Shown here: positions 461 to 58,686 of the stretch, in pieces
How positions within the stretch are numbered: position 1 is the stretch's first letter
Layout: the number at the start of each line of letters is the position of its first letter
Assembly: GCA_947561395.2 (NCBI GenBank)
Contig: OX387187.1
Location: forward strand, 21,247,829 to 21,311,828
DNA: 64,000 bases
Origin: Buxus sempervirens
Lineage: Eukaryota > Streptophyta > Magnoliopsida > Buxales > Buxaceae
Direction of reading: 5' to 3'
Program-made: the position numbers and the translations under genes
Notes under the pieces: model-generated
Databases searched by the model: none
Told to the model about the DNA's origin: nothing
The model's input: the letters and a program-made list of their open reading frames with translations, nothing else

Positions 461-578
461 TTACAGGCAAGGCTCGCCCGTATAGGAATTACGGACACGC
501 CTGACCGTGAAAATTTCACGGGCAGCGCACGCCCGTAATAACTTTACGGGCACAGCCTGCTCGTAGTATAAGTACGGT
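461..578. repeat. Palindrome array, family X (28-bp period)
   Basis: Units begin with TACGG or close variants at 462, 490, 517, 545 and 573, a spacing of 28, 27, 28 and 28 bp. Each unit is an imperfect palindrome of the form TACGGGC...GCCCGTA with a short centre; the last is only a half unit. The array sits just upstream of the TATA box of the DUF7745-like gene, between it and the 3' end of the PMD gene. The same family is at 5137-5230, 5670-5785, 10697-10800 and 37974-38090. Confidence 0.85.
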
Positions 579-784
579 TCCTTCGAAAAAATGCAAAAAA
601 AATGGGAATTTTTAATTTCTTTGGTTTCCCTAAGCTTCACCTGTCCCTGTTTTAACATTCATCAGATAATAAATACTGTAAATAAAGAAGAAAGAACACA
701 AATGGAAATAAAACAAACTTCTTTTATATATATGAATGTTTACATCACTTTTGCAAAAAAAATACAAAGGTACATGGAAGAATC

Positions 785-3730
785 CTAATCTAATGGCCAT
801 GCAGGTCCGCTCCTACGGCCACGGCCTCGTCCTCTGCCTCGACCACGGCCTGTAGATCGCCTACGCTCAAAGACATGCCGTACAATATTGCGGGCCGTGC
901 TACGCGTCATCCTGCTCAAAACAGACTGAATATCATGCCACATATATAAAGGCACAAGGCCAGCAGTGGGATGATCAGGAGGGACGTACCCTGAAGTATC
1001 TACATATCCCGTAGAATCGGGATCAGACTCTGTACGGGAAGAATCCGCAGAAGGATCAACAGCAGCATGTGTCACCTCCGCATCCTCCATATCAGGACTA
1101 ACAGGACCAGCAGGAGCAGATGTCCCAGGTACATCAACCTCCGGCTCCACAGGCTCGGTAGCAGTCATCTCCACCTCGGGCTCTACAGGATCAGCTGTAG
1201 CCTCCTCCATCACGGCAGTCTCCACGGTAGGCTCTACCACAGCGGCGTCCACAGCTGAATCCATATCAACATCAGCAGATGTAGCAGGAGCCGTCTCAGC
1301 CACTGGGGCAGACTCTGGCACGTCCTCAGTAGCAGGTACAATATCAGCCTCGACCTCGGGTTCTGCTGCAGGAACCTCCTCTGGACTAGGAGACGTCACG
1401 AACTCCACCCGTGCCACAGAAAACACCTCATCCCGGAAATGCATAGGCACGGGTGAAGCAGGTAAAGAGGGACCAGCTGTGTACTCCTGAAACTAAGAGA
1501 AAAATTCAGTCAGAACAAGACAAACAAATACAAAAGCAGGAATGGAAATAAAAGAAGAAATTAACCTGAGTATCGGATGGACCCGCCTGGTCCTGTGCAT
1601 CAGATGGACCCGCCTGATCATGTACATCAGATGGACCCTCCTGGCCCTGGGCTCTGGCTAGCTGCCCCCGGAGATCTGAGATGGTAATATAGAGGGCATC
1701 CCGCTCGGCGATCGCGGCGTCACGCTGGCGCTCTAGATCAGCATAGCGAGACCGGATCTCTGCCAACTGAGCCTCCTAAAATAAAGAAGAAAGAAGTCAG
1801 AAAATGCTAAGGACAGATGAAATAGAAATAGAAGATCACAAAAGAAGAAAGCATACCGTAGTGTCATAGGCCCTAATCACTACCCCTCCTATCTCCGTGA
1901 CTCCGCCACGGACAGGCATGGGTGACATGAGGCACCCAACAGAAGATCGCCTGAACCAGGCATCATAGTCACCCTCCTCCAATAATGTCTCTGCCTCAGT
2001 CCAATCCAAGAACTGGGCAGGATCAACAGGCATAGGAGGATAGAAAGGAGTAGTATCTGGCGGGATGGCAGGAATCCGCGGCTCTCCCACATGCTGAAAG
2101 AAGAAGCGCTCGCCGCAATACCAGATGCTGCCCAGCTGACCAATAAAAAACTGGTATCTCTGTCGTCTCTGGTCAGGGACAAATGCATCATCTCTCGCAG
2201 CCTGCAGGGCCAGCACCTCATGAATGTCCTCCATCCTGGGGACAAATAGCTGAAAACAGAACAAGACATCAGATGTGCGAACCAGGAAGAAAAGAAAAGA
2301 AGAAGTAGAAGAATTAAAGAAGATTACCTCAGACCGGTATAACCTGTCTAAGTGGGCCCGGGCGGACCTGGGACGACTCTTTTCAGAGTCGTGCTCTACA
2401 TGACACCATCTAAGTGCCATGGGATACGTCTCCTCAGGCATCGTAGAGGTAGGGCGGAAATAGGGAATATAAACCCTAGCAAAAAACTGCAAGAAAGAAG
2501 AAAATAGTCAGAAGAATAGAAAAGGAGAGATAAAAAGAAAGAGATAAAGAAAAAGAAAAGAAAAAGGTTCACCTGCAAGAAGGGCCAGAAGAACCTGCAC
2601 CCAACTCCAGCCCCTCTGGAGGTAGAGAGGCCGCTCACTGATCGGCGCAGGCCAGCCAGAATAGTACCAAATATGAGCGGGCCCCAGGCATACCTCCTCG
2701 CCCGCTGCAGATCTCCCAGAAGACTCAAGAAGTGAGGACTAACTGAAGTCGTGTCCTCTGGGAAGAAGCAGGATCCCATCATATACAGAAAAAGAAATCT
2801 GAAGGCGAAAGGAAAAACATGGTCACCAGCAGCAAGCTGGCCAAACTGCCTCCTCCTGAAAGTCTCTCTCAACCATGTCAGAGACAATCTAGCTCTCCCC
2901 CGATCCCATGCCTCAGGAGGCAGCACAATGTATCCGAGATAACCAGCAATCTCATCGGCCTCTGGCATCGCCATCTCAGTAATAACATCACCGATCATCC
3001 TAATCCCGGTGATGAGTGTGAAATCAGAAGGCCGGATCCCAATCTCAATATCTGGAAAGTGGAAGCTCAGTGTCTCTGGAAAAAACCTCTCCAATAATGC
3101 TGCAATGAGGGCTCGATCCAAGCGAACGTCCGGGATGGTGATAAACATGCCGAAACCATACAATCCAAGCTCCCGACGATAGGCCGAACTGCAAGCTCTC
3201 AAAATTTTAATAAAGCTAGCCCAGCTCCCTCTATAGTGGGACATCGGATACTCCAAAGGGATATCCGCCCTAACGCACGCTGAGGGATGAGTCCTCAAAC
3301 CATGCAGAAGATCGGTGTCCCTAATCTGGGCAGCTACCTCCTCAGGGATCTCAACCCTGGTCCTGGCCTCATCTCTACCACGGCCCCCTCTGCGGCCTCC
3401 TCTATGGCCCTCATCATGGCCTCCATCTCTGCCTCCAGCTCTGCGTCTGCTACGGCTCCTATCCCTACCAGAAGCCTCAACAGCCGGCTAAAAGAAAATA
3501 ATTGAAGAATCAGGAAGATGTATTTTGGGGAAAGGATATAAAATTGTAGAAAGGTTAGAGTATACCTCTGGGGTCGCCTCACGCGAATCCCCAGAAGGGA
3601 AATCTGGAATATCAGAATCAGAATCCCTCTCGGCCCTCGAAGACGAGGCCACATCAGCAGGATCTCGCCTAACCCTCGAGGAGGAAGGCTCATCTGCAGG
3701 ATCCCTAGAAGCTGATCGAAGGCGGGCCAT
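785..3730 (-). CDS. Plant mobile domain (PMD) protein, six-exon gene antisense in Tat element 1
   Basis: Six exons can be joined: 3730-3566, 3487-2573, 2486-2328, 2249-1857, 1775-1566 and 1492-785. Every intron (78-90 bp) has GT-AG ends, and every exon length is a multiple of three, so all introns are phase 0. The product is 849 aa with no internal stop. Residues 1-150 are acidic/Ser-rich and then Arg/Gly-rich. The PMD core (family PF10536, recalled) covers about residues 120-360, with WASFIKILRA, FHFPDIEIGIRPSDF, LTGI, GSCFFPED and GPLIFGTILAGL. The C-terminus has a Glu/Pro/Val-rich low-complexity stretch and a run of RG dipeptides. PMD proteins include MAIN/MAIL1, linked to transposon silencing, and many transposon-borne copies. 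Function here is unknown. The ATG follows directly on the acceptor of a 5' UTR intron. Confidence 0.8.
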
Positions 3731-4773: not shown

Positions 4774-5120
4774 CTGTTTCGATCGAAATAGGAAGTGTTG
4801 TTAAACCTCAAGGGATGATTACAGTCGATTGAGAGAAGAGGAAGCACTCCAATGACTTGGTCACAGCCACGGCAATGCTCAATCCAGGAACAGTTGCTGG
4901 AGATAGGAAGGCTCGTCGGAAAAATAGTAATCACCGGAGATGATAGGAGTTGCCGGAATGAACAGTGGTCGCCGGCGAAGTCACAGAAGCTCGTCGGAGA
5001 AGGAATCGGACCGTTGGAGAAGAAGGAAAGACCGCAGAGAGAAATACGGGCAGAAGAGGTTTAGGGCAAAGTGCGAGCAGAAGAGAAATGGTCGCGGTCG
5101 CGAGCTTAAGAAGAAGAGTA
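4774..5120 (-). other. 5' UTR exon of PMD gene 1 (inferred)
   Basis: A pyrimidine-rich leader on the minus strand running into the donor at 4773. The right-hand limit is a guess, set by the palindrome array at 5137-5230. Short ORFs here on either strand show no family resemblance. Confidence 0.4.
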
Positions 5121-5136
5121 AAATCCGTAACATCAG

Positions 5137-5230
5137 TACGGGCATCGGACGCCCGTGAAAACACTACGGTCCCAGTCGCCCGTGAACCCTCTACGGGCAG
5201 AGTCTGTCCGTAAGCCAAATACGGGCGAAG
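5137..5230. repeat. Palindrome array, family X, PMD gene 1 promoter
   Basis: TACGG-type units begin at 5137, 5165, 5192 and 5220 (28, 27 and 28 bp apart), with the same palindromic design as at 461-578. The array precedes the 5' UTR exon of the PMD gene. No clean TATA box was found between them; an A/T-rich stretch lies at about 5243-5258. Confidence 0.85.
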
Positions 5231-5561: not shown

Positions 5562-5576
5562 CAAAGAGGGGGCAGC
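5562..5576 (+). other. Polypurine tract of Tat element 1
   Basis: A purine-rich stretch (AAAGAGGGGG core) ends directly at the TG of LTR A. This is the expected site for priming plus-strand DNA synthesis and marks LTR A as a 3' LTR. The flanks of LTR A (GCAGC and GGCAC) do not match, as expected if the other TSD copy is outside the window. Confidence 0.65.
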
Positions 5577-7387
5577 TGTAGACACCCCAAATTGTACTGC
5601 CAAATGAGAAAATAATAAAAACATGTAATTAGAGCTTAAAACAGGTCAAAAAGGCCTAAAAATAGAATGAACAGGCTTTGCCCGTATTGACTTCACGGGC
5701 CGATCTTGCCCGCAAAATATCTACGGGCAGCCGCGCCCGTAGTATCTATACGGTCCCCGTTGGACCGTAGTGTATTTACGGGCATTAAAGACACGTGCAA
5801 GTTTTGTCATCCTCTCGATTTCCGAGCTTTATTTGAAGTCCAATATATCTTTAAACGAGCGGATTATGTCTTTTATTCGCTGAAGTCACCTTGGATGGCT
5901 ATGGATGGGCATCATCTCTGTATTTCACTCTATCCTGAGAATCAGGATATATCCTTCTGGACCAGCATTGCCCCTGGGTGTGTCTATAAATAGAGGCTCT
6001 TTCCTCTAGCTAAGGGCCACGAAATTTTGAAGAATCAAAAGCTACAAGAGAAGGAAAGGAATCCCTGCTGCTCTGCCTGCTCAATCCAGGTAAGTCCCCT
6101 ATCCCTTTTTATTTTCTGTCTTCAATTCTAGATGTAATAGGATCATCTCTATTGCTGTAGAATAAGGCCATATCTATTTTTGTATCCCTAAACTTGTCTC
6201 CAAGTACCTCAAGGGTCTCTCTAGCCGTAAAACGTGAAGAGAGAACTAGGGGAAAGGGGAACAGGTGGATCCCTAGAATAAAACCCCATATCTGTTTTTT
6301 TGTTTTTTTCATAGAATAAGGCCTGTGATTGTGTTTGTGTAACCAAACCTATCTCTAAGTACCTCAAGAGTCTCTCTAGCCGTAAAACGTGAAGAGAGAA
6401 CTAGGGGAAAAGAGAACAGGTGGATCCGTAGGGTAGACCCCCATGTGCTCTAATTTGTGAGATGTGGCTGTTTTGAATATCCTGATCATGTTTTAATGCT
6501 TTTTATGATATATCTGAATGAATAACATGAATCTATGATGTTTATAGCATGAGATCCCCTATTTTTGATAAAATTTGGATTTTTGCCACTTTTGCACCTA
6601 CAGCACTGTTTTCGTGATTTTTGTGGTTTTAGGCTAGGATCTTGGATTTATCATGATCAATATGGTAGATCTGGATCTAGAAGCCTGAAAATAACTTCTA
6701 GGGTTTCATGAGATGATTTTTAAATCGTTTTTAATTATTGAGATAAGGCCCTACGGTCTAAATTCTCCCTTTTTGGTGTTTTTCATCAGCGTTGGACTTT
6801 TTGGTTTTAATTTTTGGATTTAATGTGAAATTTGGGCTTTATCTATGTTCTGGACTGTTCAAATTAAATGATGAAATATTTTATAAAAATCATATTTTTC
6901 TAGATTTCTAGAATTTTGACTTGAAGCCAGATTTTTGGATTTTTCACTTTAAATTGATTTTATTTGATTTTATCTCAATTTTATTTTGATCATGGAACCC
7001 TAGGAATGGTATGATCATATTTGAAAGTTCTGGATCAATCAGAATATTCATATGAAAAAGACATACAATTTTGCCTCTTTTTTGTGATTTTCATGATTTT
7101 TATAGCAAGCTTTTTCTTTATTTTAAACATGAACAATGCCTGGCAACCACTTTATGTGGATGAATAGGGGTGCCTAACACCTTCCCCTGTTCATAACTTA
7201 ATCCCCTTACCCATCTCTGGTTGTTTTCTTTAGGAGGGATATTCTGCCCTAAAATTTGCCTTTTGTGCTTATTTAATATTTTGGTGTCCATTCACACCTA
7301 AATTGAATGGTGGCGACTCTTTGTTTTATTTAATCCCGTGTGATGATAGAGGAAATCATTAAGATTGATTTTTTCCCATGTCTCACA
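5577..7387 (+). repeat. LTR A: 3' LTR of Tat element 1 (LTR family I)
   Basis: 1,811 bp, starting TGTAGACACCCCAAATTG and ending CCCATGTCTCACA. U3 holds a family X palindrome array (5670-5785) and a TATA box (CTATAAATAG at 5984). The leader has a direct duplication containing CGTAAAACGTG at 6226-6236 and 6381-6391. U5 carries GGGTGCCTAACACCTTCC and GGTGGCGACTC, sequences common in Tat-type LTRs. It is near-identical, in reverse complement, to solo LTR C (36370-38180), which has the same length. Its position just after a polypurine tract makes it the 3' LTR of the element carrying the antisense genes to its left. Confidence 0.85.
5670..5785. repeat. Palindrome array, family X, in U3 of LTR A
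   Basis: Full units begin at 5694, 5722, 5749 and 5777 (28, 27 and 28 bp apart). Two neighbouring units show paired changes: TACGGGC-AGCCGC-GCCCGTA at 5722-5741 and TACGGTCC-CCGTT-GGACCGTA at 5749-5769. The array is about 200 bp upstream of the TATA box. Confidence 0.88.
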
Positions 7388-8687
7388 GGCACGACCAGTG
7401 CTTATCCCCCTATCCCTATGCCATTTTTGTGCCTTTAAGCATGCCTCCCAACCTCTTCACCACCTGTTAGGAAGCACCATGCCCCCACTATCCCTTTCCT
7501 TCGCTGAAAAATCACAAAGGAAGCCAAACGAGGCTTCTCCCCAAATCTGAACCAATGTGGGCCTTCCCAGAGGCCCACATGACTCGTAGAAGACCCCTAG
7601 GAACCCCTGGAAACAACCCCAATGGGCAAAACTCCAAAAAAGACCATTCCAGGGTGATCCGGCAACTCAGGCCGGATACATGGTAAAAATGCATTTTTCA
7701 TAATTTTGGTGTTCCTTGCCGAATTTTCATGTCATTTTTAGCAAAACCAACTAAACCAACAGGGTTTCCAGGCCACCCGGAAACCCAACTTGGGACCCGG
7801 GCCACAGGTCCAACTTGGAACATTTTCGGGCCTTCCAACGGGGCCCACCAAGCCCGATAAACCCTAAAGCAGGCCACCCAAGCAAGTTAAGTAAAATTAA
7901 CTAATCGAACCGGGCGGGCCAAACCCAATGCGGCCCACCCGAGCCTTGATGTACGGGATTGATGTGTTTAAATGCATGGTTTGGCCGAGACCCCGGGCTA
8001 GGGCCTTTCGGGCCCACCAAGGAAGGGCTCAAGCCCTAACTTCATGGAATTTGGGCTTCCAAAGCCCAAAACTGGACTGCCCAGTATCTAGAAGACTTTG
8101 GCAAATATAAACAAGATAAGTTGAAAACACTTTGGTATCCATCATGGGGGCCCACTCAGGGCCCGCAAACCAATGCAGACTCACTTATTGCATGAAAATC
8201 ACATAAGGCTCCAACTTGAATAAACTAAATAAAATCAAATCACCTCACCAAAGCCCACAGGGTCTCCTAGGTTTAGACAGAGGCCCACATGGGCTCACCC
8301 AAGCCCACCCAGGGCAACCGTGGGCCTTCCAACGGGGCCCACCCAGTCAGACTCAAATCACCTAAATCAAGCAAGATAAAATCAATTAAAGGGACCCACA
8401 CCACTCAGGAGGTCCCGAAAGACTTAACCCAATCGCATATCGGATTAGGAATCGAGTAAGACCAAGTAAGCTGACTCAAACCAGGGAACCCACGGGACCC
8501 GTCATCCAACGGGGTGGACTGGGGTGTCTACGGACTTCCCCAAACCACAATTGAGACCCTACTTAGAATCTCAAGCCACAGACCAAAGCCCAAAATAGAC
8601 TAACTTAGGCACCCAGGTGTCTGCCTGTACCCCATCAGGCGATGGCGACTCCGAATTTCCCCGTGCCGCGTTTCCGACGCGCGCACA
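7388..8687 (+). repeat. LTR family II fragment, plus orientation (3' portion)
   Basis: This block is the reverse complement, with divergence, of 28275-29600. It shares GGGCCCA-rich stretches, the GGTGTCTACGGACTTCCC block, CACCCAGGTGTCTGCCTG, and an end of GCGCACA matching TGTGCACA. Its upstream part is missing; LTR A adjoins it on the left. No coding region was recognised. Confidence 0.6.
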
Positions 8688-8799
8688 ATGGCCAATTATC
8701 ACTTGATCAAAAATTCAACTTTTCACCCCTTAGGGTTTGACTTTTGTCCAGGGTTTGCATTTCTAGCTCTTCCGGGAGCGCAAAAATGAGGTGCTTACA
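8688..8799 (-). repeat. LTR family II fragment, minus orientation (first about 110 bp)
   Basis: Read on the minus strand it starts TGTAAGCACCTCATTTTTGC and matches the first 110 bp of the family II copies at 26125 and 31022. It abuts the opposite-orientation fragment ending at 8687, so the two form a rearranged inverted junction. Confidence 0.65.
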
Positions 8800-8827
8800 G
8801 TATTATATCGGTTACAAAGACTTATGC

Positions 8828-8900
8828 ATGTATCCGATCATTTGTATCAGATACAATAAGACATAACCTTAGCTGACATATTATGTCGGATACAACCCGA
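8828..8900. repeat. Palindrome array, family Y (two units)
   Basis: Two units with starts equivalent to 8830 and 8869, 39 bp apart, of the GTATCCGAC...GTCGGATAC type. There is no recognisable gene next to it, so it is probably a remnant of a promoter. Confidence 0.7.
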
Positions 8901-10121: not shown

Positions 10122-10176
10122 TGTTTCAATCAAGCTTTTGAACTTGAAAACTGAGAAAATTCAGCAAGAAAAAAAA

Positions 10177-10476
10177 CCTTTGGTTGGTTATTTTTTCCAA
10201 TCAAATCAAAACATTTGTGGGCACTTGGAAGCCCTAGAATATTCCAAGAAACCTTTGGTTGGTTATTTTTTCCAATCAAATCAAAACATTTGTGGGACAC
10301 TTAGAAGCCCTAGAATATTCCAAGAAACCTTTGGTTGGTTATTTTTTCCAATCAAATCAAAACATTTGTGGGACACTTGGAAGCCCTAGAATATTCCAAA
10401 AAACCTTTGGTTGGTTATTTTTTCCAATCAAATCAAAAATTTGTGGGACACTTGGAAGCCTTAGAATATTCCAATA
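10177..10476 (+). repeat. Tandem repeat, four units of 75-76 bp
   Basis: Copies begin with CCTTTGGTTGGTTATTT at 10177, 10252, 10328 and 10404, spaced 75, 76 and 76 bp. They are almost identical, so the expansion is recent. An A-rich stretch follows. Short ORFs over the array arise from the repeat itself and are not called as genes. Confidence 0.9.
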
Positions 10477-10580
10477 ATAAAAAATCAAAACAAAAAAAAC
10501 AAAAAAATATAGAAAAAAAAACAAATAAATCTTGACTTGTGTTCACCTAACCTACTTATCTACATTTATAGGGGTGTGAC

Positions 10581-12397
10581 TATAGACACCCCAAATTGCA
10601 CTAAAAATGAGAAAATAATTGAAAATATTAATTGGGATTTGAAACAGGTCAAAAAAGTGTAAAATCTGGCCAAACTGGTCATGACCGTATTTTGTTTACG
10701 GACTGGTCATACCTGCAGTTGATATACGGTCACAGCGTGCCCGTATTAATAATACGGGCAGGGCGCGACCGTAATACATATACGGGCACGGGGGTCTTTG
10801 TGCGAATTTTACCTTTTTGATTTTTGAGCCTTATCTGCACCCAAATATCTCTCTTGGATAAGTGAATTCTCTTATTTACCTGTTCGAATTATCTCATTTA
10901 TCCTTGTGGATAAAGGATTGGCATGATCTTGTGTTTAACTCAAACTGAAACTCTATTTTGCCAAACCTTGGACCAACCATATCCCTGTGTTTGCCTATAA
11001 ATAGAGGGTCTTTCCTCAAGCAAAAGGCCAAGAAAGTTTGAAGAATCAAGAGCTCCAAGAGAAGAAGAGGAACCCCTGCTGCTTTGCTTGCTCAATCCAG
11101 GTAAGTCCCTTTTCCTTTTTTTATTTCATATTTCAATTCTAGATGTAATAGGATCATCTCTATTGCTGTAGAATAAGGCCATCTTTTGTATCTAGTATTC
11201 CTAAACTTGCCTCTAAGTACCTCAAGAGTCTCTCTAGCCGTAAAACGTGAAGAGAGAGCTAGGGGAAAAGAGAACAGGTGGATCCCTAGAATAGAACCCC
11301 ATATCTGTTTTTCTCCTTTTTTCTAGAATAAAGCCTGTGATTGCGTTTGTATAACCAAACCTATCTCTAAGTACCTCAAGAATCCTCTCTAGCCGTAAAA
11401 CGTGAAGAGAGAACTAGGGGAAAAGAGAACAGGTGGATCCGTAGGCTAGACCCCCATGTGCTTAAATCTGTGAGATGTGGTTGTTTTAAATATCTTGATC
11501 ATGTTTTAATGTTTTTTATGATGAATCTGAATGAATACATGAATCCATGATGTCTATAGCATGAGATCCCCACTATTTTCCAAAATTTGGATTTTTGCCA
11601 CTTTTGCACCTACAGCACTGTTTTCGTGATTTTTGTGAATTTAGGCTAGGATCTTGGATTTATCATGATCAATATGGTAGATCTGAATCCAGAAGCCTGA
11701 AAGTAAATTCTAGGGTTTCATGATGTGGTTTTTCAATTATTTTCCATTATTGAGAGAAGACCCTACCGTCTAAATTCTCCCATTTTGGTGTTTTTTATCA
11801 ACGTGGGTATTTTTGGTTTTTATTTCTTGATTTAACGTGAAATTTGGGCTTTATCTATGTCCTGGACTATTCAAGTTCAATTTTGAAATATTTTATAAAA
11901 ATCGTATTTTTCTAGATTTCTAGAATTTGACTTGAAGCCAGATATTTGGATTTTTCACTTTAAATTGATTTTATTTGATTTTATCTCAATTTTATTTTGA
12001 TCATGAAACCCTAGGAATGGTATGATCATATTTGAGAGTTCTGGATCAATCAGGCTATTCGTATGAAAAAACCATATGTTTTGTCTTTTTTGGGGATTTT
12101 TCCTGATTTTTATAGCAAGCCTTTTATCTTTGAGAAACATGAACAATACCTGGCAACCACCTTGTGTGGATGAATAGGGGTGCCTAACACCTTCCCCTGT
12201 TCATAACTTAATCCCCTTACCCATCTCTGGTTGTTTTTTTTAGGAGGGTTATTTTTACCCTAAAATTGCCTTTTGTGCTTATTTGATATTTTGGTGTCCA
12301 TTCACACCTAAATTGAATGGTGGCGATTCTTTGTTTTATTCTATCCCGTGTGATGATGAGGAAGTCAATGGAAATTGATTTTTTCCCATGTCTCACA
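10581..12397 (+). repeat. LTR B: 5' LTR of Tat element 2 (LTR family I)
   Basis: 1,817 bp, homologous end to end to LTR A. It starts TATAGACACCCCAAATTGC (the usual TG is mutated to TA) and ends CCCATGTCTCACA. U3 has a family X array at 10697-10800 with an exact 28-bp period. A CTATAAATAG TATA box lies near 10997. The leader duplication with CGTAAAACGTG is at 11239-11249 and 11394-11404. A gag start lies about 100 bp downstream, so this is a 5' LTR. I could not identify the primer-binding site with confidence. Confidence 0.85.
10697..10800. repeat. Palindrome array, family X, in U3 of LTR B
   Basis: TACGG units at 10697, 10725, 10753 and 10781, exactly 28 bp apart. The unit at 10753 is TACGGGC...GCGACCGTA, so one arm has drifted. 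Confidence 0.85.
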
Positions 12398-12500: not shown

Positions 12501-14716
12501 ATGAATACTGAAGAGAACCAAGCCCAAGCTACTGTCCCTGCCCAGGACTTTGCTTAACTGCAAGAGCAGGTGGCCGGACTAGCCAAGATTCTAGGAGACT
12601 TACTGGCGGCTCAGGCCCAACAGGCCCAGGCCAAAACCAAGCCTCAACTTCCAATCAAGCACCACCACCTCAAGCCTACATTCCACCTCCTGCTCAACCC
12701 ATGCCTGAACCCATTTCTGAGCCAGTCCCTGAACCTATTCTGATCAGGGAAAACACTGTGGAATATGAGAAGGAAATGGAAAAAGAAAAAGCCAAGGAGG
12801 AGATGGAAAAGAAACTCCTGCACAAGATAGAGAGGATCCAGGAAGAACTTAAGGAAGTAAAGAGGGGAAACAACTATGGAGGTTTCACCTTTGACGACTT
12901 GTGCATATACCTGGATGCATGCCTACCGGCCAAGTTCAAGTGCCCTAACTTCGACAAATATGATGGCACGGGTTGCCCAATGAGCCATTTGAAACTATAC
13001 TGCGGGGCCCTATGCCAATTTGGCCAGGATGACGGCATTCTGATCCAACTCTTCCAGAGGAGTTTGACATGGTCAGCTCTAAGGTGGTTTGCCACCGTGG
13101 ACCATGGCAGGATCAGAAGATGGAAGACTTAGCCGACGCCTTCTTGGACCAGTATAAATTCAACTCGGAGATCGTGCCAGACCTGTACGACATGATAAGA
13201 ATGAGCAAGGGAAAAGAGGAGTCTGTAAAGCAGTATGCCAAGAGGTGGAGAGAGGCCGCCTCCCAGGTCAGGCCGTCGATGTTGGAGCCTGAGATGATCT
13301 CAACCTTTGTAAGCACACTGGGCCAGCCCTTCTATAATCATCTGGTGGGTCAGATTACCACCAATTTTGTAGCCCTGGTACAGGTGGCAGACCGGATCGA
13401 GGAAGGGGTCAGGTCGGGAAAGCTTATCAACTACTATACTTTGGCCGGGCAATCTGATTCCTCCGCTTCCCTGGCATAGAAAAAGGGGACTGGGTTTAAG
13501 AAGAACGGGGACAGAAAAGAAGGAGAAGTAAAACTGGTACAAGCTCCTCCCTCCAAGAAACCACTCCATGTGAACATCTCTGCACCCCAACAGGCCCAGT
13601 AGTCATACCAGACCCCACTCAATGTCAATTTCTCCCCCTCCGTGCCTGCAAACCCAAGGAGGACTTTTACTAAGGAAAAGAAGGATGCCTGGATGGCAGC
13701 AAGGAGGAGCAGAGTTTTTACTCCCCTTCCCTTGTCTCTCTCCCAACTATTACCGACCCTGCTGAAAGGGGAATATGTGACCTTGAAGGAGCCCAGCCCG
13801 AATGCCACAAAGGGAAGGAATTTCGATCCGGCAGTCACTTGTGACTTCTACATGGGTGCACCAGGGCACTCTACAGATACTTGCTGGGTTCTGAAGCATG
13901 CGGTCCAAGATCTGTTGGATCAGAAGGCCCTGGTTTTAATACTACTGCGCCCGCCCCGTCGGGAAATGATATCGGGCAAAACCCCCTGCCTTACCACAAT
14001 GGGGCAGGTCCGTCCAACTCCATCACTGCCATATCCGCTACGAGTAGGGCCTTTGACCCATCTCAATTAATAGCTCCTGTGGGGACCTCGGTCAAGGGCT
14101 ATTTCTTCCAAGAGAAAGAAGAAGAGGAGGTTAATATTATCTCCAAGAAAAGTGATGAGGCTGCTGAGGATATTAGCTCCTCTCTGAACCGGGTCTCCTC
14201 TCTTATGGCCCAGATAAACACGGCAAGGCCACCATTGGTCTTTAATTGCGGTCCACCCACCTGCTCTCCAGCCAAGCCATCAAAAACTCCCTTGGTCGTC
14301 AACCTTGACCCACCACTACTTCCATCACCTCTTCTGTTCCCACAAAATCCAAGCTCCAACCCTTGGTTGTAAATGTTCAGCCATCCTACAATATCCCTAA
14401 ACCGGCCAATACATCCCAATCCAAACTCCAGCCGTTGGTGGTTAATGTCCCTAAACTGGCCTATTCTGAGGCAACTGTACCATGGAATTACAGCGAGGGG
14501 GTCACGACTATGGTTCCGGTGGTCAAGAACCAGAACCAGGAAGAGGTAAACCTCATGACGAGGTCAGGGAAATATGTGGAAGGAGCAGAAAAAGAAAAAG
14601 AAACAGAAGTCGAAAGAGAGAAAAAAGAAACAGAAGAAAAGAGAAAATTAAAAGGAAAAACAAAAGTAGGAGAAAACACCCCCAGGGTGCAGAAAATGAG
14701 GCATCAAACCTCATAA
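12501..14716 (+). pseudogene. gag: gag of Tat element 2 (decayed)
   Basis: An ATG at 12501 opens a frame with a Gln/Ala-rich start that meets a TAA at 12555. The rest is spread over shifted frames. Recognisable parts are a Glu/Lys-rich coiled region (about 12760-12870), the retrotransposon gag domain (about 12900-13440, with FKCPNFDKYDG and VKQYAKRWREAASQV), and a Cys/His segment CDFYMGAPGHSTDTC near 13840, typical of Tat gags. At least three frame changes and several stops make it non-functional. Gag would form the virus-like particle and bind the element RNA. Confidence 0.8.
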
Positions 14717-14719
14717 AAA

Positions 14720-15252
14720 TAATTAAGAAAAGCGAATTCAATCTTGTGGATCAGCTAAACAAAGTCCCGGCCCAGATTTCAGTACTGGGTCTTTTGCTGA
14801 ATTCTGAAAAGCACAGGGACGCATTACTAAGGGTGCTACAGAGTGCACATGTATCCCAAACTATCGATCCAGACCAACTAGGAAAAATTGTTGGTCAAAT
14901 CTTGTCACATAATGTGATAAGTTTCTCCGAAGGTGAGATAAGCCCAGGTGGGTGCTACTATGTCGACCCTTTGCACATCACAGTGCTTTGTAAGGGCAGT
15001 ATGGTGGCACGGGTTTTAATTGACAATGGGTCGGCATTAAATGTCTGCCCATTAATCACATTTGCCAAACTTGGTCTGGATCAGTCGAAGATCAAGCAGA
15101 ATGGGAGGATAGTGAGGGCTTTTGATAGCTCTAAGACACACTCCCTAGGGGAGATTGAACTGTCGGTCACAATTGGACCGAATATTTTCAACATCACATT
15201 TGAAGTGATGGATATTCCTGCAGCCTTCAATCTGCTCCTAGGAAGGCCATAG
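14720..15252 (+). pseudogene. Aspartic protease region of Tat element 2
   Basis: Contains VLIDNGSALNVCP near 15022, matching the retropepsin active-site loop of Tat elements with Asn at the second position, and a downstream FNLLLGRP segment. The frame stops at 15250-15252, before the reverse transcriptase. The protease would process the Gag-Pol polyprotein. Confidence 0.7.
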
Positions 15253-16153
15253 ATACATTCGGCTAGGGCAATACCATCCACGCTCCACCAAAGGGTGAAA
15301 TACATAAGAGGGCAAAGGGTGATAACTGTCCTAGCTGAGAACTTGGTGCCTCCCATTGTGTCGCCTGATGTACCCTTGATAAATGTGGATTTAACTGTCG
15401 ACAAGATTGTGTTCCACTCGTTTCAGTTTGAGACGGTCAATTTCATACCTGGGGGTGTGAGAAAAAAGAAAGGAAATGGACAACTGCAAAGAAAATGGTA
15501 AGGAAAGTGATGGAAAAATACCACTTTCACCCGGAGAAAAGCCTGGGAATAAATTTACAAGGAATGTTGGAGCCAATCAAGGTGAAGAAGCTGGTTCCTA
15601 AAGTAGGACTATGGTTCAAACCAAGAGGATGGAGAAGGATAAAGCAGGAAGAGGGAGAAAAGAGAAGCAAAGGGAAAGTCCCTCATTTAAGGGAAAATTT
15701 TCCTAAACCCTCCTATACAATCCAACTGTCTCCCCCCATGAACCAGTCCAAAGCCCCTTACCAAAATGTCAATCCTTACCAAAGGCCTTCTGTTCTAACC
15801 CTGCAACCCTATAACCCATCTCCTATACTTGAAATAGTGGGCGGGCCTGGGCCACAGTCAGAGCAGCACGCGGACTTCTCCAAAGAGGTTGGGGCTTTCT
15901 TCGCCATGACTGAGGGCGAAAGGACTGGTGATAATGAGGATCTACCATTCATTGATTGGGCAGCAGTAAAGATTCCAGATTAGGTCATATCTGGATTGGG
16001 CTCCACAGCAGAAAAGGGCAGTACAACTCATCCGGTGATGATGGCATCGGGTTCAAGGCTTGAGGAGCAGGCTTGCACAATTTCCCCTGCTCCTAAAAAA
16101 CATTTTTTGAATAATTGGGAGGAAACTCCCCTTACCTATGAAGCAGTGTTTGT
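15253..16153 (+). pseudogene. Linker between protease and reverse transcriptase, Tat element 2
   Basis: Short open pieces at 15295-15501, 15495-15983 and 15996-16193 carry Tat-like linker sequence (for example HADFSKEVGAFFAMTEGE) but no catalytic domain. Several stops and frame changes are present. Confidence 0.5.
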
Positions 16154-22453: not shown

Positions 22454-22564
22454 TGGAGATGATGGGAGCGTGCTAAGAATCAATGGGATGAAGAAAAAGG
22501 CGAAAAAGGGGTTTTCTAAACTCAAAAACTCGTAAAAAAGACTCAAATCCCGAGGCTGGTTGCA

Positions 22565-22582: not shown

Positions 22583-22727
22583 GTATCCGATATATCAGAT
22601 CGAATACAAAGGCTTCTCTTCATATCCGACGAACAATGTCGGCTACAAAAGAAGTTATGTGTATCCGATATAATATGCCGGATACAAGAAAAGTTCAGTG
22701 TATCCGATCTGATATATCGAATACAAA
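22583..22727. repeat. Palindrome array, family Y (39-bp period), DUF7745-like gene 2 promoter
   Basis: Four units begin at 22583, 22622, 22661 and 22700, exactly 39 bp apart. Each is roughly GTATCCGA...TCGGATAC with a 7-nt centre and about 14 bp of non-palindromic spacer. Confidence 0.9.
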
Positions 22728-25296: not shown

Positions 25297-25545
25297 GTAT
25301 CTGACCATATAGGTCGGATACACTAACCCCTTAGTGTATCTGACCTATATGGTCGGATACACTAACTCCCATTTGTATCCGACATAAAATGTCGGATACA
25401 AAACATGATAATTTTGAAAATTAAATGCCGCCGCGAATTTATCGGGGATTCGGCGCGAATCTCGCTGGCGGATCTCCTTGTATCCGATGAATAGTATCGG
25501 TCATGCACAAAAATACGTGTATCCGACATTTAAGATCGGATACAA
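25297..25545. repeat. Palindrome array, family Y, PMD gene 2 promoter
   Basis: Units begin at 25297, 25336 and 25375 (39-bp period). After a gap of 105 bp come units at 25480 and 25519, again 39 bp apart. The three-plus-two layout is repeated at 27339-27590. Confidence 0.9.
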
Positions 25546-45658: not shown

Positions 45659-45967
45659 TGTAACGCCTCGAACATAAGTCTATGTAAAACAAGCACCAAA
45701 CCCGAATCCGAAGTGATACTGGGCCCAAAGCTACTATGAAAGAGTAGAGAACTACTCTATAGGTCCACGATCTACAACAATTCAGAATTTAACAATGCGG
45801 AAACAATACACAGAGAATTATACGAGGAAACCTAGATCCAGATCCAGGAAAAACCTCGAGTCTATATGAGGCGACTAACCCTTCGAAAATCCACTATTGA
45901 ATGAAAAGACAATTACAAAGAAGTACATACTTAACCTTTACAATTGGACTCACTCAACAGCAGTTCA

Positions 45968-46187
45968 CAGTTCGAATCCACGAACTGCAACACAGCTTGA
46001 ATCCACAAGCTGCAGAACACGATCAGTCCAGATTGCAAACAATCACTCACCAGTGATCCTCAGTTCGAATCCACGAACTGCAACACAGCTTGAATCCACA
46101 AGCTGCAGAACACGATCAATCCAGATCGCAGCAATCACCTCAGAATCCACTGAGACAATCCAATGCAGTAGGAATCCACCTACGCAT
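45968..46187. repeat. Constant-loop hairpin set (AATCCA loop), 3' LTR
   Basis: Hairpins share the loop AATCCA (one is AGTCCA) but have different paired arms. CAGTTCG/CGAACTG is at 45968-45987 and 46061-46080, CAGCTTG/CAAGCTG at 45993-46012 and 46086-46105, CGATC/GATCG at 46113-46128, CTCAG/CTGAG at 46139-46154, and GTAGG/CCTAC (with outer ATGC/GCAT) at 46163-46187. A CGATC/GATTG version is at 46020-46035. Part of the set is a 93-bp direct duplication. It lies downstream of the TATA box, so the leader RNA should contain it. Confidence 0.9.
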
Positions 46188-46440
46188 CAATCAAAGCCGA
46201 TCACCAGTCCAGGCGATCACACGATCAGATGAAGTTCCGAATTGAAGAAGAATCCTCTATCTTCAATTCCAGGTGATCTATCTCAGATCTCCCCCTCACA
46301 CGATCGCCGACTCTCTAAAGACGATTTGATCGAATCTCAAACACCTCAAGATTCGAAAACAAAAAGATCCAAAGATCAAAAGTCACTACTAAAAATTACA
46401 GCACGTCTATTTAAAGAATAAAACTCAGATCGCGTCGAGC

Positions 46441-46800
46441 GCTGGTGGCGTCGTGAAACGATCGGGGTAGACGGCTGGAAGCGAACTCAAATCCCGCTCA
46501 GAACAGGTTGAATCAGTTAAGGGCGCGCTGCCAGCGAGCTGCTAGCGGGAGAGAACACGGCATGTGCACGGCTGATCATGTAATCTTCAATCTCGCTTTG
46601 CGCTACCAGCGGCGTGTCGGCGTCACCTAACGACGCAAGTGCACGTGCCTACTTTCAAAGCACTGATTCACTTATGCGCTGCCAGCGAGGTGGCAGCGGC
46701 GTTGATCTTCGCAAGTGCCTTTACAATAAAATGCTCTGTTTAGAAAATCTTCCATTTCATTGGGCTACCAGCGGCGTGGTAGTTGTGTGGCAGCATCGTC
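46441..46800. repeat. Palindrome array, family Z, in U3 of Copia 3' LTR
   Basis: Units GCT(A/G)CCA-GCGRSS-TGG(C/T)AGC begin at 46527, 46602, 46678 and 46764 (75, 76 and 86 bp apart). The unit at 46678 is perfect: GCTGCCA, loop GCGAGG, TGGCAGC. GCAAGTGC or CATGTGCACG follows most units. A degenerate unit is near 46441. Confidence 0.8.
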
Positions 46801-46922
46801 TTCTTATTCTTTTCTAAATTTACTGAATTTTCATTATTTAATCTGCACATCTTGAAGATTTATTAGAAGACATAATTTGTCAATCATTTGTCATAAAAGG
46901 AGTGTGAGTTTTCACACTTACA

Positions 46923-47278: not shown

Positions 47279-48568
47279 TCATCCAAAAAACTCCCCCTTT
47301 CTGGAAGGTGGTTTGGGTTCCCAAGTCCTTGAGTAATGCTTGTATGCATCTTGGGATCTGGAGTGCAACCAACAGAGTTTGTGATCCATCTCCAGCTGAG
47401 TCTTCCGAATGCTTTCCAGAAAATGATCCGCTTCATTCTGCATTCGTTGCTGAGCAGCAACGTCCCTTTGTACCTCACCACATCTAAAATCAACATCCTT
47501 TGCCAATTTCTCCAGCCTCTCTTGGGTCTCTGATTTGAATATGCTCATCATGAGCATGTGAGACCTAACCTCAGAATTGAAAGCCTCTTGGGAAGCTTGC
47601 ATGGAATTCAGTTTTTCCATAATTGCCACAGCATCAGAGCTGGACAAAGAGGACTGAGAAGAAGAGGGTTCAGAAGACACCAAACGAAAAGGATTTGCTC
47701 GTTTACTTCTGGTCAAAGTGGAGGAATCAATGGGAGGTCTGGGATGAATGATCAATTCAGCCGGATCAGGGAGTACCCCCTGATGAATGCACAGGTAAGT
47801 TATGAATATGCCAAAAGGAAGAGCTGCAATCTTGGATTTTAAATTCCGAGACTGAAGGATCTGATGGAAGATGATGGAAGGAATACAGATACTATCTCTG
47901 TTCCAGAGAGCATGAAGAAGTCTTGCTCTCGAGTGAGAAATCTCAGAATGGTGATCTGAGGGAACCAGAGAAGCACACACAAACAGATTCAAGATCCGGA
48001 GAAGATCCTGAAGAGAGCCATGAGGAAGGTAGTTGGGCTTGTTTTTGATGGAAGTAGGAGCACCCGGAACAATGAGAGAAGGAATAATAGACTCCATAGG
48101 AGAATCAGTATGAGACTCAAGAAAGTTAAAGGAGGGAGAATCAACAAGAGGCAGTTCAAGAAGAGAGGAAATAAGCTCTTTCGAGAAGTCGAAAAAGATT
48201 CCCCTGACATAGGCTTTGACATAGCCTTGATTGGCAAGATGGAGATGATGAAGATTAGAATAAAATTCTCGAACCAGGTCCGGAAATGCAAAACCACTGA
48301 TTAAAGCAAATTTTTTCCAACCATTGTCCGAAAACAATGAGTAGAGAGGAGATTCAGAAAATGACTCAAGCTTGATGGCCCTTTCTAGAAGAAGTGGCCT
48401 GTGCTTGAAGAACTCATTAAAATCAGATAAACCATTCCCCACAAATGGTTCAGAAGAATGAGAAAGGGACGGGGGTCTCACTGGAGGAGAAGAGATAACA
48501 TGAGAAGACCTCACATGAGGAGACGATGTTGAAGGAGAATCAGTTCTCGACTTTCTCTTGAGAGGCAT
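47279..48568 (-). CDS. Extra ORF of the Copia element (plant transposon-associated protein), intact
   Basis: 429 aa from ATG at 48568 (MPLKRKSRTDSPST). Residues 1-45 are Ser/Pro-rich and basic. A conserved region has GWKKFALI, FPDLVREFYSNLHH, VKAYVRGIFFDFSKELISSLLELP and KSKIAALPFGIFITYLCIHQG. The C-terminal 120 residues look like a coiled coil (SQEAFNSEVRSHML, ERLEKLAKDVDF). The middle resembles the putative plant transposon protein family (PF20167, recalled). Its role is unknown; extra ORFs at this place in SIRE elements were once called envelope-like, but no signal peptide or membrane span starts at this ATG. It has its own TATA box, leader intron and family Z palindromes. No stop interrupts it, unlike gag-pol. 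Confidence 0.75.
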   Translation of the reverse strand: MPLKRKSRTDSPSTSSPHVRSSHVISSPPVRPPSLSHSSEPFVGNGLSDFNEFFKHRPLLLERAIKLESFSESPLYSLFSDNGWKKFALISGFAFPDLVREFYSNLHHLHLANQGYVKAYVRGIFFDFSKELISSLLELPLVDSPSFNFLESHTDSPMESIIPSLIVPGAPTSIKNKPNYLPHGSLQDLLRILNLFVCASLVPSDHHSEISHSRARLLHALWNRDSICIPSIIFHQILQSRNLKSKIAALPFGIFITYLCIHQGVLPDPAELIIHPRPPIDSSTLTRSKRANPFRLVSSEPSSSQSSLSSSDAVAIMEKLNSMQASQEAFNSEVRSHMLMMSIFKSETQERLEKLAKDVDFRCGEVQRDVAAQQRMQNEADHFLESIRKTQLEMDHKLCWLHSRSQDAYKHYSRTWEPKPPSRKGEFFG

Positions 48569-48866
48569 GGTGAAGAGAAAATTGAAAGAGAAAGAGCAAA
48601 CAAACAAAAAACAAACAACAATCGAAAAAGCCCTAATGGCAGAACAATCTACCAAACCCTAGCGTAGAATAACGAGAGAAGACTACAGAACTAGGAAGCA
48701 GAAAATGAAGAAGCAGGATGAAGACAGTAAAAAAAATTTTACCTGAACAGTAGACAGGAAGAAGGAAGGTGAAAAGGACAGCAGCACAGGAACACGACGC
48801 GAGAAGCGAGAGGAACCGAAGACAGGTAAAAAAGAAACAGGGGTAAAAAGTGAATGCGATTTCACC
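48569..48866 (-). other. Leader and probable 5' UTR intron of the Copia extra ORF
   Basis: Pyrimidine-rich minus-strand leader. A donor TTCAGGTAAAA lies at about 48742, and acceptor-like AG sites are present between 48610 and 48665. Exact splicing is not fixed. Confidence 0.5.
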
Positions 48867-48874: not shown

Positions 48875-48885
48875 GGCAAATAGAA

Positions 48886-48990
48886 TACGCTGCCAGCGAG
48901 CAGCTGGCGACATAGAAATAGGCATGTGCCAAAGCAAGCTATACCAGAGAAGGCTACATGCACGCTTCTAGCGACGTAGAAGGTGCACAT
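48886..48990. repeat. Family Z palindromes, internal promoter of the Copia element
   Basis: GCTGCCAGCGAGCAGCTGGC at 48889-48908 and CTTCTA-GCGACG-TAGAAG at 48965-48982 (perfect 6-bp arms). CATGTGCC and GTGCACATGCAC follow. These match the U3 units of the same element in centre sequence and in the trailing GTGC motifs. Confidence 0.75.
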
Positions 48991-54785: not shown

Positions 54786-54833
54786 GCTATAGATCTAGAT
54801 CACACTTTGTATAGCAATTCAAAGTGAATAGGC

Positions 54834-54845
54834 TCTGATACCACT
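54834..54845 (-). other. Primer-binding site, initiator Met tRNA
   Basis: TGGTATCAGAGC on the minus strand, two bases after the 5' LTR end. It is complementary to the 3' end of plant initiator Met tRNA, the usual Copia primer. Confidence 0.9.
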
Positions 54846-56031
54846 TGAAAGAGTAGAGAACTACTCTATAGGTCCACGATCTACAACAATTCAGAATTTA
54901 ACAATGCGGAAACAATACACAGAGAATTATACGAGGAAACCTAGATCCAGATCCAGGAAAAACCTCGAGTCTATATGAGGCGACTAACCCTTCGAAAATC
55001 CACTATTGAATGAAAAGACAATTACAAAGAAGTACATACTTAACCTTTACAATTGGACTCACTCAACAGCAGTTCACAGTTCGAATCCACGAACTGCAAC
55101 ACAGCTTGAATCCACAATCTGCAGAACACGATCAGTCCAGATCGCAAACAATCACTCACCAGTGATCCTCAGTTCGAATCCACGAACTGCAACACAGCTT
55201 GAATCCACAAGCTGTAGAACACGATCAATCCAGATCGCAGCAATCACCTCAGAATCCACTGAGACAATCCAATACAGTAGGAATCCACCTACGCATCAAT
55301 CAAAGCCGATCACCAGTCCAGGCGATCACACGATCAGATGAAGTTCCGAATTGAAGAAGAATCCTCTATCTTCAATTCCAGGTGATCTATCTCAGATCTC
55401 CCCCTCACACGATCGCCGACTCTCTAAAGACGATTTGATCGAATCTCAAACACCTCAAGATTCGAAAACAAAAAGATCCAAAGATCAAAAGTCACTACTA
55501 AAAATTACAGCACGTCTATTTAAAGAATAAAACTCAGATCGCGTCGAGCGCTGGTGGCGTCGTGAAACGATCGGGGTAGACGGCTGGAAGCGAACTCAAA
55601 TCCTGCTCAGAACAGGTTGAATCAGTTAAGGGCGCGCTGCCAGCGAGCTGCTAGCGGGAGAGAACACGGCATGTGCACGGCTGATCATGTAATCTTCAAT
55701 CTCGCTTTGCGCTACCAGCGGCGTGTCGGCGTCGCCTAACGACGCAAGTGCACGTGCCTACTTTCAAAGCACTGATTCACTTATGCGCTGCCAACGAGGT
55801 GGCAGCGGCGTTGATCTTCGCAAGTGCCTTTACAATAAAATGCTCTGTTTAGAAAATCTTCCATTTCATTGGGCTACCAGCGGCGTGGTAGTTGTGTGGC
55901 AGCATCGTCTTCTTCTTCTTTTCTAAATTTACTGAATTTTCATTATTTAATCTGCACATCTTGAAGATTTATTAGAAGACATAATTTGTCAATCATTTGT
56001 CATAAAAGGAGTGTGAGTTTTCACACTTACA
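54846..56031 (-). repeat. 5' LTR of the Copia element
   Basis: 1,186 bp, collinear without gaps with the 3' LTR (offset 9,109). It contains the family Z array (about 55550-55909), a TATA-like TTTAAATAG (55517-55525 on the plus strand as CTATTTAAA) and the constant-loop hairpins (55077-55296). In the third hairpin this copy reads CGATC/GATCG, a perfect stem, where the other LTR has GATTG. Confidence 0.93.
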
Positions 56032-56036
56032 TACTA

Positions 56037-56230: not shown

Positions 56231-56235
56231 GGTAC

Positions 56236-58686
56236 TGTGAGACATGGAGAAAAATCAATCCTGTGATTTTTCCGGTCATCACACGAGATTCATAAAAATG
56301 GGAAAGTCACCACCATTCTTTTTAGGTGTGAATGGACACTAAAAAATGATCAAAATAAGCAAAAAGACAAATCTAAAGTAAAAATTACTCTACTTGAAAA
56401 TAAAATCCAGAAATGGGTAAGGGGATTAGATTATGAACGGGGGAAGGTGTTAAACACCCCCATTCACCCATACAAGGTGGTTGTCAAGTGTTGTACATGC
56501 TCAAAATAAAGAAAGCTTGCTAAAATAATCAAAAAACTTGAAAAGGATTAAAAACATGTATGATTCCTCCACATGAGAAGTCCAATGAATCTTAGACTTT
56601 CTTTTATGGAAGTATCACTTCTGGGACATAACTATTAAGTGGAAATCAAAGCAAAACTTGAATACAACCAAGTTAAGACAAATCTGGAAAATTCAGTAAA
56701 AGATGGAGCCATTTGACCATAAATCATTCAAATCAAATTCAAATAGAATCAAACCAAATCCATTTAAAAGATTATGATAAATAGAAGACTTATGAAAATT
56801 TTCAATTAAATCCGGTTAAAACCCTAAGAGTTATGCTCTTTTGAAATCTGCTGTTGGAAATCGGTAAAAGTAATAAGTGGGCAACTTTGGAAATTCATTT
56901 TGGAAAATTGGCTCCATATAAATCCGTGAAAATTTACATGAATGAAGTATGTAGTGCCATATTTCAAATGAAATAGGTCCCATACAAAACTTCATCCAGA
57001 TGTGCCTTGGGTGACCTCCCAAATAGGCCCCGAAGATCACAGATTAGCCCAGAAATCTGTTGTTGAGCAGTTCTGAGTAAATCAGTTACCCACAACACAA
57101 ATGAAATCAAAAAAATCTGAAACCAATTGGATTTGAGACTCATAAAGGAAAGCACCGAAATCAAAATCACTCAAATCGGACTTAAAACGAACAGGTGGTG
57201 CTCATTCAAAGTGACAAGTTCAGCAATTTGGCCTGAACTGACCTGTCGACTTTGATCGAATGGTGTCAAAAATCCACTTCATAAAAATTGATGAAATTTT
57301 ACAGGTAAGAACTAGACAGCCCCACCTTTCCCATGTCTTTAGAATCACTCCAAAATTCATCCAGATGATGAAGTTATGAGTGTCCGAAGTTAAGGTACAG
57401 CTGCTGTCCAGTTTAGGCCTTTCTAAGTAAAATCAACCCAAAACGGTGATCACGTATGTGTAATCCGTGCAATCTACATCTAAATCATTTGAAAAAGTAT
57501 TGAAAACCCTCTATGAGGAAATAGGGCATGAGTTTGGCTTCACCATTCTCTTCGATTGGAGAGAATATGCCAAAAACCCTAAAATGGAGCAAAAATGCCC
57601 AACTGAGAGGTTAGACTATGAGGTCTTCAATATTCAAAGATAAATTTGCTGAAATCATTAAGAAATGTCTCAGAATTGCTTAGGGCCATTTATTTCAGAT
57701 CTATCACAATGAATACAATAGATCCAAAATACAAGCCGATTCCGACAAAACGAGTGCTATGTATGCAAGTGTAAAAAATTGTCTCTTTAAACACATACAT
57801 CACAACATATAGCATTCAAAGCATATCAATAAAATGGGGGTTCTAGAACTAGGGTTCCATTCCCCTTTTCGTTTCCCTTAGTTCTCTCTCCACGTTTTAC
57901 GATTTCGAGATAGTCTTGGGGTACTTTGAGTAAGGAATGGGGTTTCACACAATCATAGGCCATTCAAGAGGGTTCTAAGACTAAAGGTCAATTCCTAGTC
58001 TCGTTTCCCTTAGTTCTGTCTCCACGTTTTACGGTTTCGAGATAGTCTTAGGGTACTTTGAGTAGGGAAAGGGGTTTCAAGCACAATCATAGGCCATTAT
58101 TCTATAGAAAGGTAGAAGAAAGATCTAACCCTAGAATGTAAAACAGAAAAATAAAGAAGTTCCAGGCTTACCTGGGTTTCTAGGAGCAATGCGGCAGCGG
58201 TTCCCTTCTTCACTTGGAGCTCTTCAATCTCCAACTTCTGGCTCTAAAATTCTTGGCCATTTTCTTGAGGAGAGGCCTCCTATTTATAGGCAAAGGCTAG
58301 GGTTAGGAGGAACCCTAATGGTAGACACAAGGATGTGTCTAGAATCCCCACACTTAACCCTAAAGCTATTTCCGAGATTTCCACTTCTTAAACAAGGGAT
58401 AAGACAGTAAAAAGTGAAAACTTTCGGAAAACCCTAATTTTGAGCAAAATCCTTGCATCCGACAACTCAGGTTGGATATAAGGGAACATATTTATAGCCG
58501 ACATATGTCGTCGGATACAATACTACTTGCTTGTATCCGACGACTTCTGTCGGATATAAAAACTCTTTCTTGTATCCGATGACTTGTGTCGGATACAATA
58601 AAGAACATTTCAATCTGAATTTTTGTGTTGGTTACAAAATATAGAATGAATTCATCATTTTCCTAGTGAAATTTGGGGTGTCTACA
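56236..58686 (-). repeat. LTR D: solo LTR of a divergent family I subfamily
   Basis: 2,451 bp with minus-strand ends TGTAGACACCCCAAATTTCA and CATGTCTCACA, flanked by perfect GGTAC duplications (56231-56235 and 58687-58691). It keeps the family I ends, U5, TATA box (TATAAATAGG near 58270) and two CGTAAAACGTG copies (57891-57901 and 58023-58033), but its U3 has a family Y array instead of family X. It is longer than LTRs A-C. Confidence 0.9.
58455..58640. repeat. Palindrome array, family Y, in U3 of LTR D
   Basis: Units begin at 58455, 58494, 58533, 58572 and (weak) 58611, all exactly 39 bp apart, about 180 bp upstream of the TATA box. Confidence 0.9.

Follow-up and report, generated by a model that had tools for sequence, protein, structure and literature searches.

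The window (the whole 64-kb stretch of plant DNA that was analyzed) is crowded with nested LTR retrotransposons. Pfam scans of the window identified Ty3/gypsy and Ty1/copia pol genes, a copia gag, and genes encoding Transposase_32, plant mobile domain (PMD), and DUF7745 proteins, and LTR boundaries were set by comparing the window with itself and by locating target-site duplications (TSDs). A search with the copia reverse transcriptase resulted in matches for 7999 of 8000 scored candidates; among the best 120 of these, the named matches are from flowering plants and the highest identity is 70%. Searches with the Transposase_32 and DUF7745 proteins gave no matches at an E-value of 1e-3 (3891 and 1951 candidates, respectively), which reflects the limits of these searches, as both families are known to Pfam. 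Comparison of three window proteins with solved structures gave no meaningful match, and a search of the whole window against Rfam gave none at the gathering threshold, the leader hairpins described below included. The gypsy pol region on the plus strand (16154-19757, Pfam) encodes two RNase H domains, PF17917 (17050-17892) and PF13456/PF00075 (17950-18975), and dual RNase H is given as a Tat trait in PMC9289625, which makes this a Tat-type Ty3/gypsy pol. The open frames ahead of it (12701-15983) had no Pfam match.

Three families of arrayed inverted repeats, termed X, Y, and Z, are distributed among these elements. In the X arrays, TACGGGC half-sites alternate in orientation every 14 nt (13 nt if the center is 6 nt), resulting in a strict period of 28 nt for two alternating half-sites. 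Spacer GC content is 63% within head-to-head pairs versus 23% between pairs (51 of 81 versus 26 of 112 bases, P = 3e-8; of the 13 inner and 17 outer spacers, 12 and 16 were counted, the two flanking a decayed half-site being excluded), and the two phases are therefore not equivalent. At the left of the window, a DUF7745-like antisense coding stretch (329-3) is preceded on the minus strand by an array of 10 alternating half-sites, TACGGGC/GCCCGTA (444-581), with a TATA[AT]A box 22 nt downstream on the minus strand and a CpG observed/expected ratio of 1.58 (flanks, 0.58). There follow PMD frames, including an antisense PMD ORF (PF10536, Pfam; 2396-3298, minus strand), an array of eight half-sites between the PMD gene and the 3' LTR (5119-5226), and the Ty3/gypsy-type 3' LTR X1 (5577-7387, plus strand), which has a polypurine tract immediately ahead of it (5564-5576) and an X array in its U3 (5680-5783), 201 nt upstream of a TATA box. 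Judging by their order and adjacency, the genes and arrays to the left of X1 appear to form one element, whose pol gene lies outside the window. Two solo LTRs also carry X arrays: X3 (10581-12397, plus strand, TSD GTGAC), with an array at 10683-10787 and a TATA box 208 nt downstream, and X2 (36370-38180, minus strand, TSD GGCGT), which is 99.4% identical to X1 and has an array at 37974-38077. A 76-bp tandem repeat of approximately four copies (10170-10513) adjoins X3, and a perfect AT-rich palindrome with 14-nt arms and a 4-nt center is located at 36081-36112.

The Y arrays consist of 25-nt units with a strict period of 39 nt. Four units at this period (22583-22724) lie next to an antisense DUF7745 (PF24924)/PMD ORF (21611-22546, minus strand, Pfam), with TATA[AT]A 12 nt downstream on the minus strand. 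Antisense PMD-type coding stretches that are 45-50% identical to the PMD of the X element (23848-25132, minus strand; in frame 24731-25177 the PMD Pfam score is under the curated cut-off) are accompanied by arrays of three and two units (25297-25543), again with TATA[AT]A 12 nt downstream on the minus strand. This promoter is duplicated at 27339-27584 (three and two units; TATA[AT]A 11 nt downstream, minus strand), where no coding region was recognized behind it. A further array of three units is located at 29346-29448 and a decayed one at 8807-8893, both of which may belong to LTRs. The solo LTR Y4 (56236-58686, minus strand, TSD GTACC), which is not connected to the Y internal region, shares homology with the X LTRs in its first bases, near the TATA box, and at its 3' end, yet carries a Y array in its U3 (58455-58635; five units, the last decayed) with a TATA box 166 nt downstream. 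The window holds three copies of a block that precedes the Y promoters (25785-26125, 27825-28163, and 30674-31022), the third having a TATA box nearby and no Y array that we could find, and two inverted LTR-like fragments that are approximately 70% identical (7659-8799 and 28339-29451) adjoin Y arrays. This part of the window also contains a lone perfect palindrome with 11-nt arms, a 7-nt center, and two CACGTGG boxes (30620-30648), with TATAAAAGGGG close to it on the minus strand near 30420. Sites for auxin response factors were considered for Y and rejected, as the base beside CCGAC is not conserved and neither X nor Z matches such sites. When viral contigs were searched, the Y pattern gave a single Y-like palindrome without an array, the X pattern gave no match, and three protein scans gave no relatives.

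The Z arrays belong to a complete copia element with LTRs that are 99.3% identical and a TSD of TAGTA. Both its 3' LTR (45737-46922, minus strand) and its 5' LTR (54846-56031, minus strand) contain a Z array in steps of 75, 76, and 86 nt (46526-46784, in U3, and 55635-55893, respectively), each followed 110 nt downstream by TTTAAATAG. An extra gene in the envelope position encodes a Transposase_32 domain (PF20167, Pfam; 47279-48571, minus strand), and two Z units lie upstream of it (48888-48984), with TATA[AT]A 13 nt downstream on the minus strand. The element is a Sirevirus, with the hallmarks of that genus present: the polypurine octamer AGGGGGAG followed by AT/TG at the 3' LTR (minus strand, 46921), and the LTR/primer-site junction CA/A(T or G)TGG with TATCAGAGC (54832-54846). 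Octamers are also clustered near the 3' LTR (minus strand; 46925, the terminal one, 47124, and 47291, which falls within the end of the extra gene), and the Sirevirus linker is described as having such clusters, with four octamers on average (PMC2829016).

The initial annotation had cited six palindromes from the three families, all of which are present. Two palindrome scans resulted in 85 listings versus 11-25 in shuffled sequences and 39 versus 0-3, respectively; X or Y units account for 18 of the 39 and Z units for none. Examined array by array, 7 of 14 arrays score above each of 300 shuffles; no Z array is among them. The arrays as proposed thus stand far above chance for X and the main Y loci, but not for Z by simple count. 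A separate scan for inverted 7-mers found a cluster of ATGCATG/GCATGCA repeats at 26332-26586. The central claim, that changes in one arm are matched in the other, fared less well. Within arrays, paired changes were no more common than expected by chance (Y, P = 0.32; X, P = 0.36), which for this small sample is the result that the initial annotation had named as refuting it; pooling the arrays gave P values of about 0.03-0.07, with the Y score reached by 1 of 500 shuffles. Arm covariation in Y, which the pooled tests had kept alive as the main reading, was dropped because it vanishes within arrays, and matching arm changes are at most weak, and borderline at best. In the Y arms, 59 cells are one-sided or differing versus 10 shared, and the unpaired changes have no G-U bias (18 G-U on the plus strand, 20 on the minus strand, and 21 other). 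Multi-base paired changes are present in two units, at 29422 (GTTGA at the start, in both arms) and 48963 (CTTCTA, in both arms).

The description "symmetry is kept, sequence is not" holds for another array in the window, at the level of RNA. The transcribed leader of the Sirevirus, recognized as such because it lies downstream of the TATA-type box, encodes nine hairpin units (eight with intact stems) that share a hexaloop, TGGA(T/C)T, on covarying stems (55077-55327, minus strand), and a second copy of the array is located at 45968-46218; the loop is fixed and the stems differ. The window contains 140 TGGA(T/C)T hexamers, and 17 are closed by at least five pairs, 16 of them in the two LTR leaders. 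Among the ten hexamers of the 5' leader, eight are closed by at least five pairs, one by three, and one by two. When the leader was shuffled 2000 times, the closed occurrences of any one loop hexamer never exceeded two, compared to six observed for TGGATT alone. Eight of nine units were also aligned by stem (the three-pair unit was kept and the two-pair unit omitted). In these eight distinct units, 94.6% of stem cells pair versus 51.6% in shuffles, both-sided changes occur in 22 stem cells versus 7.4, and the covariation score is 1.17 versus 0.30, with 0 of 500 shuffles as high on all three; these values come from units that were selected as hairpins, and a 93-bp duplication makes three unit pairs identical or nearly so, leaving approximately six independent stems. 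The loop-based shuffle test is the cleaner of the two. A covariance model built from the units gave 18 matches below an E-value of 0.03, all in the two leaders, and the folding z-score of the leader is -5.2. A fixed loop on freely varying stems points to recognition of the loop in RNA. That the hairpins have a role in packaging or Gag binding is a guess, helped by the zinc knuckle encoded in gag (Pfam), and they are a candidate genome-recognition signal of a plant retrotransposon. Among the literature matches listed, we found no report of leader hairpins in Sireviruses.

The X and Y arrays behave differently, in that the half-sites themselves are conserved. Between the LTRs X1 and X3, half-sites are identical at 49 of 56 positions (88%) and spacers at 17 of 42 (40%; P = 1e-6, with one of seven spacers excluded for unequal length). 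Between the Y arrays at 25.3 and 27.3 kb, the corresponding values are 50 of 54 (93%) and 26 of 49 (53%; P = 5e-6), and a third, decayed pair of arrays differs in the same direction without reaching significance (24 of 36, 67%, versus 15 of 28, 54%). Half-site sequence and register are kept while centers and spacers drift, as would be expected of protein sites on double-stranded DNA. Position is also constant. In every one of the six LTR copies (four when near-identical ones are counted once), the array is in U3 with a TATA-type box 110-208 nt downstream, and in five of the eight non-LTR loci TATA[AT]A is found 11-22 nt away on the minus strand, which is the sense strand of the antisense or extra genes. 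With a chance of 2.6% per site and strand, this corresponds to P = 6e-7 for one strand and 2e-5 for both, for a pattern picked after the sequences and flanks had been seen. The 250 nt on each side of the X array at 5.1 kb and of the Y arrays at 8.8 and 29.3 kb contain no TATA[AT]A. The CpG observed/expected ratio was measured for 11 arrays, those other than the Y arrays at 8.8, 25.5, and 27.5 kb and two LTR copies, and in all 11 it is higher than in the 1-kb flanks (0.77-1.86 versus 0.23-0.75); the enrichment follows partly from the motif.

The two gypsy families can be compared at corresponding places, in this one window. In the second gypsy region, DUF7745 and PMD follow each other as in the X element, accompanied by Y arrays. 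When the two regions were aligned, the DUF7745 coding sequence was 72-78% identical and the array-bearing noncoding stretch 41-53%, with 64% identity in the stretch behind the arrays (764-862, where the PMD gene probably ends). The LTRs X1 and Y4 likewise fall from 65% identity in the first block to 36% over the array and are 60-66% identical at the TATA box. At equivalent places the motif thus differs under the same layout; between the X and Y genes, the whole noncoding promoter has diverged and not the array alone, which slightly lowers the odds of the explanation proposed below.

We consider it probable that X, Y, and Z are promoter-proximal, cis-regulatory protein-binding arrays of inverted half-sites, of the kind described as repeated motifs (RMs) in Sireviruses, with one specificity per lineage. 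A protein would recognize one short half-site (TACGGGC in X, GTATCCGAC in Y, and a CGCTGCCA-like sequence in Z) and would bind paired inverted sites on double-stranded DNA at a fixed spacing. Once bound, it would activate, or keep open, the adjoining TATA promoter. The presumed targets are two promoters with the same motif, one in the LTR U3 for the genomic RNA and an internal one for the extra gene, the extra gene being antisense PMD/DUF7745 in the gypsy elements and Transposase_32 in the Sirevirus. If each half-site is held near the preferred sequence independently, palindromes would be maintained without copying between arms, and if the lineages use different proteins, the half-sites would therefore differ while the layout stays the same. 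Of the readers suggested in the initial annotation, a dimeric protein fits the fixed register, the half-site conservation, and the promoter position.

As to which protein binds, we regard it as possible, at less than an even chance, that one or more host transcription factors read the arrays and that the elements acquire different host sites. Bousios 2010 matched RMs mainly to sites for stress-related plant factors, and 4 of the 13 RM-bearing Sireviruses covered there have no ENV gene and keep their LTR motifs (PMC2829016). A strict layout with unrelated half-sites, and the replacement of Y by X, would be less expected of host sites. A binder encoded by the element itself, with the PMD/DUF7745 or Transposase_32 protein binding its own array at the LTR and at its own promoter in a VANC-like desilencing and with motif and protein changing together, is given tentative credence, well short of an even chance. 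It would account for arrays at both the LTR promoter and the extra-gene promoter, and the two internal arrays to the left of X1 and the X1 LTR array, which by adjacency belong to one element, are all X. The X and Y PMD coding stretches have diverged to the identity given above (DUF7745, 73% over 109 residues), VANC provides a precedent for motif arrays that differ between related transposable elements (PMC5735166), and DNA binding has been predicted for the antisense proteins of Retand (PMC11963269). The Sireviruses that keep LTR motifs without an ENV gene argue against it, as does the absence of any DUF1985 match, at E-values up to 10, in a Pfam scan of seven window proteins. A broader reading, which we think unlikely as a whole, is that a self-addressed code operates in both LTR superfamilies: the element-encoded PMD/DUF7745 or Transposase_32 protein would bind arrays at every promoter of its own element, a lineage would evade other lineages or silencing by the host through a wholesale exchange of its arrays (X to Y), in a VANC-like system that originated within LTR elements, and the Sirevirus genomic RNA would in addition be marked by the fixed-loop hairpins and read by Gag.

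Two further readings were considered. The palindromes might matter through hairpin formation, either in RNA or as cruciforms; they could, for instance, give rise to silencing-inducing small RNAs, a role put forward for the LTRs of maize Sireviruses. Small RNAs are over-represented at maize Sirevirus palindrome clusters, according to work cited in PMC10760457, but they may be a consequence and not the function, and in X and Y the pairing of stems is not the conserved property, there is no covariation within arrays, and Y has no G-U bias, so that we judge this improbable. Template switching within imperfect palindromes is known as quasi-palindrome correction. Templated copying of one arm onto the other by this route, also raised in the initial annotation, would explain the multi-base paired changes at 29422 and 48963 and the borderline pooled values, but with no excess within arrays, mostly one-sided or differing Y cells, and nothing in X, it is very improbable.

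The arrays were then compared with known systems. VANDALs are Mutator-type DNA transposons. Their VANC proteins, the best model for a reader encoded by the element, bind motif arrays that differ between related transposable elements and thereby lower DNA methylation and relieve silencing (PMC5735166, PMC10398659). As in our window, short motifs are arrayed in noncoding parts and have diverged alongside diverged encoded proteins. VANC carries DUF1985/DUF287, whereas the proteins here are PMD, DUF7745, and Transposase_32 in LTR elements, and VANDAL motifs have one orientation, in contrast to the inverted pairs and alternating orientation found here. The Retand/Tat gypsy elements, whose antisense ORFs lie between pol and the 3' LTR, share the dual RNase H and the antisense genes beyond pol, and PMD is described as the extra domain found most often in plant Gypsy elements (PMC11963269, PMC7264820). 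The antisense ORFs of Retand are mostly Transposase_28, unlike the DUF7745 and PMD in the frames scanned here. In the Retand paper (PMC11963269), "palindrom" occurs twice, at least once in the reference list, and no report of palindrome arrays in gypsy elements was recognizable by title or start of abstract among the matches listed.

The closest likeness is to the Sirevirus RMs, and the initial view that no named feature class describes such arrays was mistaken for Z and for the general design. The palindromes described in Bousios 2010 are specific to each element and lie ahead of the TATA box in the LTR and, again, ahead of the envelope-like gene; they are clustered and CpG-rich, and their sequence varies among elements while symmetry is kept (PMC2829016). 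Z sits in a Sirevirus at both of these published places, and several Z units are imperfect palindromes. The CGG-CCG core of the RMs is missing from the Z alignment, for which Tnd-1 is a published exception (PMC2829016), and the clear Z units number four per LTR plus two internal, a count from which divergent units may be missing, compared to at least 8 copies per element (8-32 reported). X and Y differ from RMs in being in Ty3/gypsy-type elements (a gypsy-type pol lies beside the Y arrays, and the LTRs are unlike the Sirevirus LTR and have their own polypurine tract), in lying upstream of antisense genes, and in having 6-7 nt centers and strict periods of 28 and 39 nt. X has a CGG-CCG core and CpG-rich clusters upstream of the TATA box and extra gene, the TATA box being missing at 5.1 kb, and in Y the unit order is CCG then CGG, the reverse of the RM core. 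The repeated-motif class is thus known in Sireviruses; new are its occurrence in gypsy elements, the change of motif between corresponding promoters, and the hairpins in the leader. The 2010 observation is now tied to a second superfamily, where unrelated half-sites follow the same layout, and to antisense genes that are described as being of unknown function (PMC7264820, PMC11963269), and homologous elements with different arrays offer a clean test of the extra protein as the reader of its array.
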